Made by a program: the position numbers and the translations under genes. A model generated the notes under the pieces. That model saw nothing but the letters and a program-made list of their open reading frames with translations. It ran no database searches and had not been told where the DNA came from. From a bacterium (GTDB lineage: Bacteria > T1Sed10-126), in the NCBI GenBank assembly GCA_003554945.1, contig PWHN01000027.1, positions 1 to 7,408 of the forward strand: 7,408 nucleotides of DNA, given 5' to 3'. Below are positions 1,736 through 7,408 of the stretch, piece by piece. Position 1 is the stretch's first letter. The number at the start of each line of letters is the position of its first letter.

Positions 1736-3838
1736 ATGGAAATTGGCAAGTTATTAGATCGTGTTGAATCGAATGCTATTGTTTTACCAGAGTTTCAAAG
1801 AGAATTTGTTTGGAAAAAATCTCAGGCCAAGGAATTGATGAATTCTCTTTTTAAAGGCTATCCAATAGGGGGATTACTTGCCTGGGAAACCGAAGACCCT
1901 CCCGAGATAAAAAATGATGCTGTTGATAGGGAAAAACAAGCTTTATTTGAAATATTGCTTGATGGCCAGCAACGGCTCACAGTACTTTATATGCTGATAA
2001 AAAATGATATACCACCTTATTATGAGAAAGCGGACATCGGTAATGATCCAAGGAAACTTTATTTTAATGTTGATACCAGTGAATTTCATTTCGAAAATAG
2101 GCGTGTTAAAGAAGGTAATACGTGGGTAAAGGTAGTAGATTGTTTTTCGGAAAAAGTGGACGGTATTTCAATTGCTCAGGAGCAAGTGGGGGATCAACCA
2201 GAAGAAGTCATAGAAATTTCTAAGAAATATAGTAATCGCATAGGCACTCTAAGAAGTATTAAAAATAGAAATATACCGGTGGAAACCTTACCTAAATCCG
2301 CCAATATTCATCAGGCGATAGAACTTTTTGACAAAATAAATTCTCAGGGTACCCATCTTAGTGATGCAGAGCTTGCATTGGCCCATATGAGTGCTCATTG
2401 GCCGCACATTCGTCGTCATATGAAACGTAAGCAAACGGAACTCGCAGAAAAGGGGTTTGATTTTAATCTTAATTTTTATGTCAAGTGTATGATTGGTTCA
2501 TTGACGGAAACTATGTCTTACGAGCAAGTTTACAATATCCCGAAGGATAAATTGAAAAAGCAATGGCAAAAACTGGCTGATCGAGAAAAAGGGATTTTTG
2601 ATTACCTTTTTAACGTCTTGAAAAATGAGGCCCATATTCCCAGTTCGGATTATATTAACACCCGGGATGCTTTGATTCCTCTGATTGTTTATCTCAATAA
2701 AAAAGGCAGAAGAATATCAAAAGAAGAAAAAACTGAATTTATTCGGTGGATGTATGCGGCTATGATGTGGTCCCGATACAGTGGTTCTGCAGACTCACGA
2801 GTCGAACATGACCTTTCGCTCCTGGATTCAACCTCACCGACTAAATCTTTGATACAAACCATTCGGGACGACCGAGGACGAATAGAAGTTCAACCTTCGG
2901 ATCTGGCCGAACGCGGGAAGCGTGTGCGCCGTTTTTATAACATGGTTCGAATAGTTACTCGAGCCTCCAACCCTGTTGATTGGATCACCGGTGCGCCTTT
3001 GAAAGGGTCTTATAAATTGCAATCCCATCATATATTTCCAAAAAGTAAGCTATACAAAGAGTATGATTCTGGAGTGGCTACGAACAGAAAATTAGTTAAT
3101 GAAATTGCTAACAGAGCTTTCATAACTCCGGAAAGCAACCAACGTTTTAGTGATACCTTGCCAGGCGAATATTTACCCAGGGTGTTAGAAAAACATCCGG
3201 AGGCTCTTTCTTCGCAATATATTCCAGAAAATAAGGAATTATGGAAAATAGAAAATTATGAGGAATTTCTAGCCAAACGTCGGGATATGCTCGCTCATGC
3301 GATCAATGATTATATGAAGGATCTGGTTTTTGGCACTCTTGAAGAACCGACGGAAACCGTGGATAATATGATTGAAAAAGGAGAGAATCCACGAATAGAA
3401 TTCAAAGAAACTCTTTTATATGATGTCTTTCAAAATAAGGCCAATAAGAATTTAAAAATGGAAGTAGCTAAAGAAATTTGTGCTATGGCTAATACTGAGG
3501 GAGGGGTGGTTATAATTGGAGTTGAGGATGCAAGTAAGGAAGTGAAGGGACTTGAAAGAGATTATAGGATTTTGCGTAATGGACAGGATGAATTTGAACT
3601 TCAATTAAGACAAGAAATTGCCAATCGGATCAATGAACTTATGTCTAATACTTATACTACGGTTGATTTTAAAGAAGTAAACGGTAAAGAGGTTTGTGTT
3701 GTTTACGTTGAAGAGAGTCCAAATCCAGTTTACTTCCGGGAAAATGGTGAACAGAAATTTTATGTTCGGGACGGCACATCGTCCAAACCATTAAGCATCT
3801 CTGAAGCAAACGACTATATCAAAATTAATTTTTCTTAA
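1736..3838 (+). CDS. DUF262 (GmrSD/SspE-like)–HNH nuclease–AlbA_2 (Schlafen-like) fusion
   Basis: The protein is 700 residues; ATG 1736 has a strong GGAGGG site. N-terminal DUF262: LPEFQREFVW (17-26), GYPIGGLLAWE (41-51), the hallmark DGQQR (76-80) followed by LTVLY, and FDKINSQGTHLSDAE (198-212). In SspE and GmrSD relatives this domain is a nucleotide-hydrolysing module that licenses cutting of modified DNA. The middle carries an HNH-type nuclease core: HHIFPKSKL (431-439), NRKLVNEIANRAFIT (450-464) and N468, with PGEYL (476-480). The C-terminus (about 548-700) is AlbA_2: IEFKET (554-559), KEICAMANTEGGVVIIGVED (579-598) and FYVRDGTSSKPLS (675-687). Known DUF262-HNH proteins normally stop after the nuclease, so the appended nucleic-acid-binding domain is the notable point. 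No ssp, dnd or other modification gene is visible. Probably a stand-alone restriction-type defence effector; the role is inferred. Confidence 0.85.
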   Translation: MEIGKLLDRVESNAIVLPEFQREFVWKKSQAKELMNSLFKGYPIGGLLAWETEDPPEIKNDAVDREKQALFEILLDGQQRLTVLYMLIKNDIPPYYEKADIGNDPRKLYFNVDTSEFHFENRRVKEGNTWVKVVDCFSEKVDGISIAQEQVGDQPEEVIEISKKYSNRIGTLRSIKNRNIPVETLPKSANIHQAIELFDKINSQGTHLSDAELALAHMSAHWPHIRRHMKRKQTELAEKGFDFNLNFYVKCMIGSLTETMSYEQVYNIPKDKLKKQWQKLADREKGIFDYLFNVLKNEAHIPSSDYINTRDALIPLIVYLNKKGRRISKEEKTEFIRWMYAAMMWSRYSGSADSRVEHDLSLLDSTSPTKSLIQTIRDDRGRIEVQPSDLAERGKRVRRFYNMVRIVTRASNPVDWITGAPLKGSYKLQSHHIFPKSKLYKEYDSGVATNRKLVNEIANRAFITPESNQRFSDTLPGEYLPRVLEKHPEALSSQYIPENKELWKIENYEEFLAKRRDMLAHAINDYMKDLVFGTLEEPTETVDNMIEKGENPRIEFKETLLYDVFQNKANKNLKMEVAKEICAMANTEGGVVIIGVEDASKEVKGLERDYRILRNGQDEFELQLRQEIANRINELMSNTYTTVDFKEVNGKEVCVVYVEESPNPVYFRENGEQKFYVRDGTSSKPLSISEANDYIKINFS

Positions 3839-3902: not shown

Positions 3903-3979
3903 AAACGTATCGTACGAGGACTTTAGGAAGTAATTAGGCAAGAAGCTCTAGAACTTAAAATTCTTGAAGCCTGGCTAAA
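3903..3979 (+). repeat. Direct repeat, copy A (structured, about 77 bp)
   Basis: Positions 3903-3936 (34 bp, starting AAACGTATCG and containing the palindrome TCGTACGA) are identical to 6649-6682. Weaker similarity continues to GGCTAAA. The element can fold: TTTAG (3922-3926) with CTAAA (3975-3979), AGGC (3936-3939) with GCCT (3969-3972), and AAGAA (3940-3944) with TTCTT (3961-3965). In one frame the shared part encodes NVSYEDFRK and a stop (TAA 3931-3933), so it could also be a copied gene end. It lies 65 bp after the fusion gene and may act as its 3' end. Confidence 0.7.
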
Positions 3980-4392: not shown

Positions 4393-4575
4393 GTGGTTGT
4401 CATCAGTAGAGAGGAAAAAGAATTTCTGGAGCATATTGCTCGCCGTCTGGACCTGCTTGCCGAGTATATTTCTGCCTGCCATTCGGAGTCCGGGGTAACT
4501 CCTGAAGAAAAAGAAGAAATCAAGGAGAAGGCACTGGTCTCCTGGCCGGAGCGGAAGGCAAATGACGGAAAATAG
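4393..4575 (+). CDS. Small helical protein of about 60 residues (unidentified)
   Basis: The frame ends at TAG 4573-4575 and overlaps the exonuclease ATG by 14 nt, suggesting translational coupling. The protein-like part starts ISREEKEFLEHIARRLDLL and continues through a second charged helix (TPEEKEEIKEKAL). It is acidic, amphipathic, and probably a two-helix protein. The start is unclear. GTG 4393 is in frame, but GAAGGGG (4387-4393) abuts it; that Shine-Dalgarno-like stretch would suit a start near 4402, where the codon is ATC. A TTG at 4342 is also in frame but has no ribosome binding site and gives an unconvincing N-terminus. I do not recognise the family. Its overlap suggests a partner, adaptor or regulator of the exonuclease. 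Confidence 0.55.
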   Translation: MVVISREEKEFLEHIARRLDLLAEYISACHSESGVTPEEKEEIKEKALVSWPERKANDGK

Positions 4576-5188
4576 AGATTTTAGCTGCCTGCCTTATGGA
4601 CAGGCGAAAGACTGGCGAATAGCTTTTGTTGATGTGGAGACAACTGGACTTATTCCGGGGCATCACGAAATGGTAGATATAGGTGTCGTAATCTGTGATC
4701 TAAGTGGAGAAGAAATAGCCTGTTTCTTTCAGCGCATAATGCCCCGATATCCCGGGAGGGCCAGCGATGAAGCTCTGAGCTGCAATGGATTTACGGTTGA
4801 GCGCTGGCGAGAAAAGGGAGCTGTTCCCGGGGAAAAAGCGGTTGAGGAAGTAATTGAGTTTTACAATTCAATTGTTCCTGAAGTACATATTCTGATGAGC
4901 GCTTACAATGCCACTTTTGATCACGCCTTCCTTGATCACCTGTTTCGTCAGGTGGGGGAGAAAGCTCGCCAGCTTCATAATTACGTGCTTGATCTGCCGG
5001 CGGTCGCCTGGGGCGCCGGCTATCACAATCTGCACCTCAGCCAAATAGTTGAGCGTCTTGGGGTTGAAGACGAGCCGCGGGTAAGTAACGGGGCAAAAGC
5101 CTGGGAACATACGGGTCTTACTGGGGCGAAGCTGAATAAACGAATTTATCAGAAACTAAAAGCTCAGGAAGGGATTGGAGGCGAGTAA
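4562..5188 (+). CDS. DnaQ-like 3'-5' exonuclease domain protein, ExoIII Asp missing
   Basis: The protein is 208 residues, starting at ATG 4562 inside the end of the upstream small ORF, with GGAGCGGAAGG just upstream. The DEDDh exonuclease motifs are visible: ExoI VDVETTG (23-29, metal ligands D24 and E26), ExoII AYNATFDHAFLD (114-125, D120) and an ExoIII-like WEHTGLTGA (181-189). In active DEDDh enzymes ExoIII reads H-x4-D; here H183 is kept but the aspartate position is G188, codon GGG, two base changes from any Asp codon. The fold is probably retained, but metal binding may be weakened, or a different residue may serve. It is longer than a minimal domain, with about 18 extra residues before the first strand and a lysine-rich C-terminus. 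It is not a full polymerase subunit, and repair, phage-derived or defence roles are all possible. Confidence 0.75.
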   Translation: MTENRDFSCLPYGQAKDWRIAFVDVETTGLIPGHHEMVDIGVVICDLSGEEIACFFQRIMPRYPGRASDEALSCNGFTVERWREKGAVPGEKAVEEVIEFYNSIVPEVHILMSAYNATFDHAFLDHLFRQVGEKARQLHNYVLDLPAVAWGAGYHNLHLSQIVERLGVEDEPRVSNGAKAWEHTGLTGAKLNKRIYQKLKAQEGIGGE

Positions 5189-5428: not shown

Positions 5429-5467
5429 ATGACTACGGGTTCGGAAGTTAAATATAGCGATTTGTAG
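5429..5467 (+). CDS. 12-residue leader peptide or interrupted gene start
   Basis: TTGGGAGG (5414-5421) lies 7 nt before ATG 5429, one of the best ribosome binding sites in the window, yet the frame (MTTGSEVKYSDL) ends at TAG 5465-5467. The same frame is open again after this amber codon and runs directly into the 357-residue gene at 5501. It may be a leader peptide, or the original start of the larger gene cut off by a nonsense change. Its SD partly lies within the last hairpin of the candidate leader RNA. Confidence 0.35.
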   Translation: MTTGSEVKYSDL

Positions 5468-5500: not shown

Positions 5501-6574
5501 ATGGACAGATTTACGCTTTTAAAACAATATGGTCAGCAGAATGAGGGAATTCTGACGTATCCGATTTATCTGTCAGAGCCTATCAACGATCAATTACAAC
5601 CCATTACCGACGATGAGGAAGCAGTATTTACAAATCTGCAACAGGTAGGACGGGGAGATAGTGCTCTATTGATAGAGACCGATGTTGATGATGAGCTTCC
5701 CAAGGACGAATTGGTTGCTCTTGACTCTATTCCTGAGCAATTTGTTCAGTTGATCCGGGAGAATCCCGTTCAGGTGATCTATCCGTGTGCGAACGGTGTT
5801 CCAGGGTTCTATCTTTTTGGAGAAATACTGGGGCGTCAAGCTCTGATGAAAAAATATTGGAATCCCCCCGAACTGCGATCCGTTTTACTTACCGATACGA
5901 ATCTTAAGAGTTGTTACGAAGAGAGGCAATCCGATCATGGGACACGGTATATTTTTGAGAAGTTTGGGATTGAGGTGTGCTACCCGGACTCAGATATGAA
6001 AGCGGGTGATTTTTCGTTACAAAAGCTCCCTTCAATCTCCACTGAAATAGAGAAAGATGATATTATCGGGAAAGAGATTGACGTTGAGAAAGAACGGGGG
6101 TTCCCGGGAAAAGATGCATCCGGAGAGGATCGAGTGTTAAATTGGTATCACAAGAATAACTTAGAGACCGGCCCACTTTTTCGGGAGTTTAGGGTTACAA
6201 ATGGTATTGAAAACTCAGCGCGCCAGCGAGCCTTGGATGGACTTCTTATATGTAACGGCGAAGAAAATCAAGTATATAAACCAACACTCCAGAATGGTGG
6301 TTATGAATATGCCAAACATTTAATCGATCAGAACTATCCGCTCATAGCCATTGAAGTGCACAAGTGGGGATGGGAGGGATTCGGCCAAGTGGTAGGGAAG
6401 GCGACTCTATTGGAGGATTTCTGGGATGCTCCTATTGTTCGCAAAGTCCTTGTTGTTAAAAATAACCAGGGAAGGAACTTTGAACGATTGGATCGTGAAA
6501 ATCCCCAGGTTGACCTTGAATCCATAATGGCAGACTACGGCGTAGAAATTGTCATCGCCCCGGAGGATATCTAA
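5501..6574 (+). CDS. Unrecognised protein with duplicated restriction-endonuclease-like domain
   Basis: The protein is 357 residues; ATG 5501 follows GGGAGGGAG (5489-5497). I cannot name the family. Two segments, about 88-163 and 279-354, align with each other: GEILGRQALMKKYW (107-120) with GQVVGKATLLEDFW (295-308), then PELRSVLL with PIVRKVLV, and GIEVCYPDSD with GVEIVIAPED. The second half looks like a PD-(D/E)XK-type nuclease core: LFREFRV with E229, RALDGLLI with D246, then IAIEVHK with E285 and K288, and the GFGQ motif (293-296). In the first half the aspartate may be kept (RGDSALLIE, D53), but the E and K positions appear as Y94 and A97. A charged linker (about 165-215) joins the halves. 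A nuclease with one degenerate and one active-looking copy is my inference. It stands alone, flanked by a structured leader and a direct repeat. Confidence 0.6.
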   Translation: MDRFTLLKQYGQQNEGILTYPIYLSEPINDQLQPITDDEEAVFTNLQQVGRGDSALLIETDVDDELPKDELVALDSIPEQFVQLIRENPVQVIYPCANGVPGFYLFGEILGRQALMKKYWNPPELRSVLLTDTNLKSCYEERQSDHGTRYIFEKFGIEVCYPDSDMKAGDFSLQKLPSISTEIEKDDIIGKEIDVEKERGFPGKDASGEDRVLNWYHKNNLETGPLFREFRVTNGIENSARQRALDGLLICNGEENQVYKPTLQNGGYEYAKHLIDQNYPLIAIEVHKWGWEGFGQVVGKATLLEDFWDAPIVRKVLVVKNNQGRNFERLDRENPQVDLESIMADYGVEIVIAPEDI

Positions 6575-6613: not shown

Positions 6614-6679
6614 ATGAGTAAAAACGGAAAACGTAAAAAACGTATCAAAAACGTATCGTACGAGGACTTTAGGAAGTAA
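6614..6679 (+). CDS. Possible 21-residue basic peptide ending inside repeat B
   Basis: ATG 6614 opens a short frame rich in K and R (KRKKRIK) and ending NVSYEDFRK at TAA 6677-6679. The last nine codons and stop are the ones shared with copy A at 3904-3933. AGG at 6603-6605 is a weak ribosome binding site. It may be a real small basic peptide, the remnant of a gene whose end was copied, or a chance frame through a DNA-level repeat. Confidence 0.2.
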   Translation: MSKNGKRKKRIKNVSYEDFRK

Positions 6680-6724
6680 TTAAGCGCATACTCTCAAAAT
6701 TTAAAATCGAAATGCTTGGCTAAA
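6649..6724 (+). repeat. Direct repeat, copy B (structured, about 76 bp)
   Basis: Positions 6649-6682 equal 3903-3936 base for base. Later parts are diverged but keep the ends. TTTAG (6668-6672) pairs with CTAAA (6720-6724), and AAGC (6682-6685) pairs with GCTT (6714-6717). In copy A the inner pairing is AGGC with GCCT, so one G-C pair has become A-T on both arms. It lies 74 bp after the 357-residue gene, a position like that of copy A after the fusion gene. Confidence 0.7.
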
Positions 6725-6942
6725 GTAGAAACAAAACCGGTTCAGGGCTTGAGCAGGGGGGGAACGAGGTATCGTAATTTAAGTTTTTAGCTATTCCCCG
6801 GAACCCGGCAGCGTATATCCTCATTCCAGACCCGAAATCCTCCTCCATATATCCAAAGTCCCGTACATAAGACATACGATTAGTCTCGCCAAGCCGTCCA
6901 TAACGCCAAATCCCAAAAAATCCCTCCCCGAACTAACCCCAA
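6725..6942. other. Noncoding spacer with two weak minus-strand frames
   Basis: No gene is well supported here. On the minus strand, 6901-6821 reads as 26 residues (starting MDGLARLIVCLMYG). A second frame from ATG 6875 to TAG 6720 reads as 51 residues (starting MSYVRDFGYMEEDF) and stays open well upstream of that ATG. Neither has a proper ribosome binding site, and they overlap each other in different frames. The plus strand has a run of seven G at 6756-6762. It could be a decayed gene or a dispersed repeat. Confidence 0.35.
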
Positions 6943-6987
6943 ATCTGTACAATTCTACAATCGGTACTATTGTACAATTGTACAGAT
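6943..6987. promoter_or_regulatory. Operator-like palindrome with TGTACA boxes
   Basis: ATCTGTACAATT (6943-6954) and AATTGTACAGAT (6976-6987) form a perfect 12-bp inverted repeat with a 21-nt spacer. TGTACA occurs at 6946-6951, 6971-6976 and 6979-6984. The sequence TACAATTGTA (6973-6982) matches the TACANNTGTA operator known for the CopY/BlaI/MecI repressor family. It lies about 60 bp upstream of the candidate promoter at 7048 and 128 bp before the gene at 7116. No matching repressor gene is in the window. Confidence 0.5.
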
Positions 6988-7047
6988 GTGCAAATAGAAT
7001 ATGTAATAAACACAGGATGTTTCCTCCAGTTTAATTAGATGTTCTCT

Positions 7048-7115: not shown

Positions 7116-7408
7116 ATGGAAGCTCCCCGCCAGGTTGAGATGATTCTTAAGCATGGTGATGTATCTTCCACCTATAAGTTTGCTCTTCTGAAAAGTATTA
7201 TTGACTATGTCATTGCCCACCCGACGGAAGATGCACGCAACGGGTTTCACTATATCCCCGGGATTTACCTGGCGCGCCAATTTATGCGCTACTACTGGCC
7301 GCTGTGGAGACACGAAATCCCCCAGAATCCCACCGGCCGCACCGCGATGGCCTCCGTTTTTGAAGACTTCCAGGCGAAAGTAGACCACGATCTATACCGG
7401 GAACCGAA
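7116..7408 (+). CDS. N-terminus of a probable HNH endonuclease-family protein (partial)
   Basis: The frame is open from ATG 7116 to the window edge, giving 97 residues and no stop. The ribosome binding site is weak (GGGACGG near 7100-7106). Residues 17-29 (SSTYKFALLKSII) and a later stretch with IPGIYLARQFMRYYWPL and HEIPQNP resemble the N-terminal region of a group of HNH endonuclease proteins that share a YKFALL segment, a YYWPL segment and an IPQ motif. The nuclease domain itself would lie beyond the window and is not seen. A minus-strand frame covering the same DNA is a shadow. The TGTACA operator and the promoter at 7048-7075 lie upstream, pointing to separate control. Family assignment rests on remembered motif likeness. 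Confidence 0.55.
   Translation, partial: MEAPRQVEMILKHGDVSSTYKFALLKSIIDYVIAHPTEDARNGFHYIPGIYLARQFMRYYWPLWRHEIPQNPTGRTAMASVFEDFQAKVDHDLYREP

Follow-up and report, generated by a model that had tools for sequence, protein, structure and literature searches.

What kind of protein does an orphan gene encode when it lies in a defence-like neighbourhood and its product appears to consist of two related halves? The gene in question (positions 5501-6574, + strand; 357 aa) is carried by a bacterial genome of 2.2 Mb in 121 contigs, and the window analysed here is one entire contig of that genome, 7,408 bases long. The open reading frame is present, in frame and coding. Its codon-usage log-odds are 0.154 in frame versus -0.085 and -0.061 for the two alternative forward frames, its GC content by codon position is 0.58/0.32/0.43, and a Shine-Dalgarno-like GGGAGGGAG stands immediately 5' of the ATG at 5501.

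The open frame that contains the gene amounts to 368 aa; between the TAG at 5465-5467 and the ATG at 5501 lie 11 sense codons in frame. This TAG closes a 12-codon ORF, MTTGSEVKYSDL (5429..5467, + strand, ATG to TAG), which has a good Shine-Dalgarno sequence and shares the frame of the orphan gene. Judged from its sequence, this short ORF may be a leader peptide, or it may be the true N-terminus of the orphan protein truncated by an amber codon. A further alternative is a decaying gene, in which the TAG cuts off the original N-terminus and the N-terminal half is eroding, as the ribosome-binding site, the common frame and the single intervening TAG of the 12-codon ORF would allow. However, the remaining 357 codons are free of stops, both halves read as in frame by codon use (log-odds 0.132 for the N-terminal and 0.164 for the C-terminal half) and the ATG at 5501 has a ribosome-binding site of its own; we regard decay as very improbable.

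The two halves are related through an internal repeat, which at the level of sequence is real and supports a duplication. Residues 102-166 (5804..5998, + strand) match residues 290-357 (6368..6571, + strand; including GFGQ at 293-296) in a BLASTP alignment of 68 residues with 24% identity (35.4 bits; E 1e-7, calculated for a single comparison). The Smith-Waterman score of this repeat is 78, against 30.3 +/- 5.0 in shuffled sequences, with none of 1000 shuffles scoring as high, and the core of the repeat by itself has a z of 13.9 that none of 2000 shuffles reaches. The self-alignment that the sequence-only reading had proposed as a check is thus significant, but over a shorter span than claimed. 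That reading had aligned residues 88-163 with 279-354 along their full length; the likeness holds for 102-166 and 290-357, while 88-101 and 279-289 are no more alike than shuffles. Nor does its offset of 191 apply throughout: the best ungapped diagonal has an offset of 188 (106-130 with 294-318), and a three-residue gap brings it to 191 near the end. Across the whole upstream part, residues 1-101 and 190-288 show no likeness better than shuffles, as local scores do not attain the mean of the shuffles and 630 of 2000 shuffles equal or exceed the global score.

The limits of the repeat bear on the residues proposed for catalysis. E285 and K288 of the C-terminal half lie just upstream of the significant repeat, and their partners in the N-terminal half are therefore uncertain by three residues. 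MAFFT pairs them with Y94 and A97, as previously stated, and the ungapped register would pair them with A97 and V100; the corresponding stretch Y94-V100 (5780..5800, + strand) has no acidic residue or Lys. The absence of the E/K pair from the N-terminal half is independent of register, because residues 88-103 (NPVQVIYPCANGVPGF) include neither an acidic residue nor a Lys, and in either register no acidic residue is followed by a Lys two or three positions later. The description of the N-terminal copy as degenerate is therefore upheld. The counterpart of D246 is also uncertain, being S54 by MAFFT, with D53 one residue off.

In the C-terminal half, the proposed nuclease-like series comprises D246 (6236..6238, + strand), a candidate first metal ligand within ALDGLLI; E285-V-H-K288 (6353..6364, + strand), a candidate variant of the (D/E)XK half-motif; and, more weakly, E229 (6185..6187, + strand), a candidate upstream acidic residue that by eye resembles the RE preceding the ID strand of NucS. 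All residues named by the earlier reading (E229, D246, E285, K288, Y94 and A97) are confirmed in the protein sequence. The elements follow one another as LDGLLI (D246), IAIEVHK (E285 and K288), GFGQ, VRKVLVV and GVEIVI, with hydrophobic strands preceding both the D and the E, 39 residues from D246 to E285, and then K288 and Q296. The canonical PD-(D/E)XK half-motif has the form (D/E)-x-K, so that E-V-H-K, an E-x-x-K, is one residue longer, a difference that the earlier reading passed over. Variants of the PD-(D/E)XK site are known (PMC1189080). A pattern made of a D, further on three hydrophobic residues directly before E-x-x-K, and later GQ occurs once in the orphan protein; it turns up in 8 of 20,000 shuffles of that protein and is absent from all 245 other ORFs, figures to be read with the fact that the pattern was composed post hoc with knowledge of the orphan sequence. 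The series would suit a PD-(D/E)XK core and is rare in shuffles, but its half-motif is E-x-x-K, and profile, sequence and fold comparisons give it no confirmation. On its sequence, an active nuclease-like domain in the C-terminal half is plausible.

The same half resembles by eye the C-terminal nuclease domain of NucS/EndoMS (DUF91). There the order is an acidic residue and an ID strand, VVELKR, a Q-bearing helix, a VRGILxAP strand, a helix and a GLEF strand; in the orphan C-terminal half it is E229, LDGLLI, IAIEVHK, a GFGQ helix, VRKVLVV, a helix and GVEIV. The two differ in spacing, with 14 residues from D to E in NucS versus 39 in the orphan protein and E-x-K versus E-x-x-K, and their N-terminal parts are different. 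When each orphan half was compared with the NucS alignment by hhalign, 140 of 300 and 126 of 300 shuffles scored as well, and the score against the profile of the NucS C-terminal domain was 11.8 versus a null mean of 11.9. Since hhalign places either half at the mean of shuffled queries, the by-eye resemblance is without statistical support.

Family and fold searches are similarly silent. The orphan protein has no match in Pfam, NCBIfam, PADLOC or PDB sequences, PD-(D/E)XK families included, and its best match in PHROGs is ERCC4-type only (E 0.36, residues 142-197). The PD-(D/E)XK superfamily is often missed by single-sequence queries, and the missing profile match is therefore weak evidence against membership. 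The core fold of this superfamily is a four-stranded mixed sheet with helices on its flanks. AlphaFold2 gave a mean pLDDT of 35 for the whole protein modelled without relatives, too poor to superpose the halves, and of 41 for the C-terminal half with the N-terminal half as sole companion sequence, which is again too poor; a Foldseek search with the latter model, whose quality is too low for the result to carry meaning, had an unrelated fold as its best hit (E 0.52).

These results give some weight to a reading in which an alpha/beta domain of another, non-nuclease fold has been duplicated, the protein serves for binding or as a scaffold, and the E, K and D of the C-terminal half are coincidental. 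The sole significant repeat falls past the supposed catalytic strand, nuclease matches are missing both from the family libraries and from the Foldseek run on the poor model, the E-x-x-K spacing is non-canonical, and the motif pattern was picked after the fact. Against this, the order and spacing of the motif are rare by chance (the 8 in 20,000 shuffles above) and the elements follow a NucS-like order by eye. We consider such a non-nuclease duplicate the closest competitor, possible but less probable than a tandem nuclease.

The distribution of the protein is that of an orphan. Searches of about 1,100 whole genomes, among them its own, 192 and then 386 related genomes and further phyla, gave no relative, and the protein is absent from the one other genome of its phylum in the set searched. 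Plasmids and phages searched by tblastn, and viral contigs searched with single and degenerate queries, likewise contained no relative. Two scans of genome contigs also found none; in one of them the query patterns came from a widened alignment that consisted partly of artificial rows and directed the scan to the wrong stretch, so that this ill-aimed scan leaves the 85,000 species without a good degenerate query. The weak genome matches whose ORFs were read (an ABC transporter, prfB, a sensor kinase and others) are due to chance. One further weak match (E 0.0043), a 65-aa open frame with two internal stops in another genome, was dismissed on these figures alone.

The neighbouring genes, all on the + strand, offer a setting for this protein. 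A HigB-like toxin (421-720) and a helix-turn-helix antitoxin (about 731-1108) form a HigBA pair by family search, and they are followed by a 700-aa protein with GmrSD_N and SLFN_AlbA_2 domains (1736-3838) that several PADLOC defence models match, and by an RNase_T-type exonuclease (4562-5188). With HigBA and the GmrSD-type protein, the neighbourhood of the orphan gene is defence-like. The GmrSD_N and SLFN_AlbA_2 protein is 67-68% identical to plasmid proteins of the haloarchaeon DL31 and of Haloquadratum walsbyi, versus at most 35% for the other plasmid matches listed, and on these sequences an exchange between domains of life is likely. Together, the haloarchaeal plasmid identity and the PADLOC matches of this protein suggest that genes here were acquired horizontally and that their setting is defence-like. 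The haloarchaeal loci around the relative of the GmrSD-like protein contain no relative of the orphan protein.

Between the genes, we note a 37-nt direct repeat, 97% identical, whose copies follow the GmrSD-like gene (3903-3939) and the orphan gene (6649-6685) and so flank the exonuclease and orphan genes on both sides. A 26-nt pattern taken from it, allowing up to three mismatches, occurs genome-wide in exactly these two copies, and the repeat is possibly a trace of insertion or recombination. An inverted repeat at 6940-6990, with 22-nt arms that are 91% complementary around TTGTACAATTGTACA, lies upstream of the last ORF and is a possible operator. That ORF (7116-7406, + strand) is incomplete, running to the contig end, and has no match in Pfam above the cut-off, NCBIfam, PADLOC or plasmids. 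Integron attC-like pairs (RYYYAAC/GTTRRRY) are absent between the genes of the contig, and Rfam and tRNA searches returned no matches.

The same setting admits a tandem PD-(D/E)XK protein of another kind, one in which the C-terminal half has no activity either, or whose work lies in repair or recombination and not in defence. PD-(D/E)XK domains act in repair as well as in restriction (PMC1189080), the neighbours include the RNase_T-type exonuclease, and neither the ORF list nor the family search places a methylase gene in the contig. However, absence from the other genome of the phylum and from all others searched fits an accessory gene better than a core repair gene, and we hold this alternative to be unlikely, behind the non-nuclease duplicate and ahead of gene decay.

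We favour, at a probability of roughly 0.4, a tandem PD-(D/E)XK protein in which an N-terminal pseudo-domain precedes a C-terminal nuclease, probably for DNA restriction or defence. The significant repeat, the rare motif, the NucS-like order by eye and the HigBA, GmrSD_N + AlbA_2 and RNase_T-type neighbours speak for it; the missing family match, hhalign scores at the null level, the E-x-x-K, a catalytic strand outside the significant repeat, two low-confidence models and the absence of homologues from the sets searched speak against it. On this view an ancient duplication, or a fusion, of a single PD-(D/E)XK-type alpha/beta domain would have produced a protein of two domains. Its C-terminal domain (about 208-357) would probably be a Mg2+-dependent nuclease: D246 would sit on a strand, E285 and K288 in the next strand or right behind it, and Q296 where the helix after that begins. 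In the N-terminal domain (about 1-166) the second, structural half of the fold would have been preserved and the E/K pair lost; its binding target may be DNA, a second site or a partner subunit, and it may position or gate the active domain. The most likely role would be restriction or defence against mobile DNA, suggested by the mobile, defence-like segment.

Such an active/pseudo-nuclease pair had been proposed as a notable design for a sensor-effector or a DNA-clamping enzyme; designs of this kind have precedents. In Sau3AI-type IIE restriction enzymes, tandem PD-(D/E)XK domains include a degenerate C-terminal repeat (PMC1189080), and the archaeal COG1395/PAB2104 family, for which an intragenic duplication has been proposed, combines a PD-(D/E)XK domain, a helix-turn-helix and an inactivated PD-(D/E)XK domain (PMC1189080). 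Because tandem active/degenerate chains are thus on record, the design is not new. The orphan protein shares with both two homologous copies in one chain (BLASTP E 1e-7) and one copy without catalytic residues. Like Sau3AI, it is a single chain of two related halves with catalytic residues in one only, but its degenerate half comes first and that of Sau3AI second, and its fold and activity are predictions; Sau3AI itself gave no match in a comparison made via PDB sequence and Pfam searches only. It resembles COG1395/PAB2104 in carrying an active-looking and a degenerate copy within one chain, but in that family the active copy comes first and a helix-turn-helix separates the copies, and none is recognised between the halves of the orphan protein (zero Pfam matches). 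A bolder proposal, which we find distinctly improbable, is that the protein represents an undescribed single-chain active/pseudo PD-(D/E)XK family whose leading degenerate copy would sense or clamp DNA and license C-terminal cleavage, as a stand-alone defence that needs no methylase.

At present the protein stands as an orphan with a well-founded repeat and a plausible nuclease motif in its sequence. If the fold is confirmed, this orphan lineage would join the short list of active and degenerate nuclease pairs that share one chain, and its compact protein would allow the function of a pseudo-nuclease domain to be studied.
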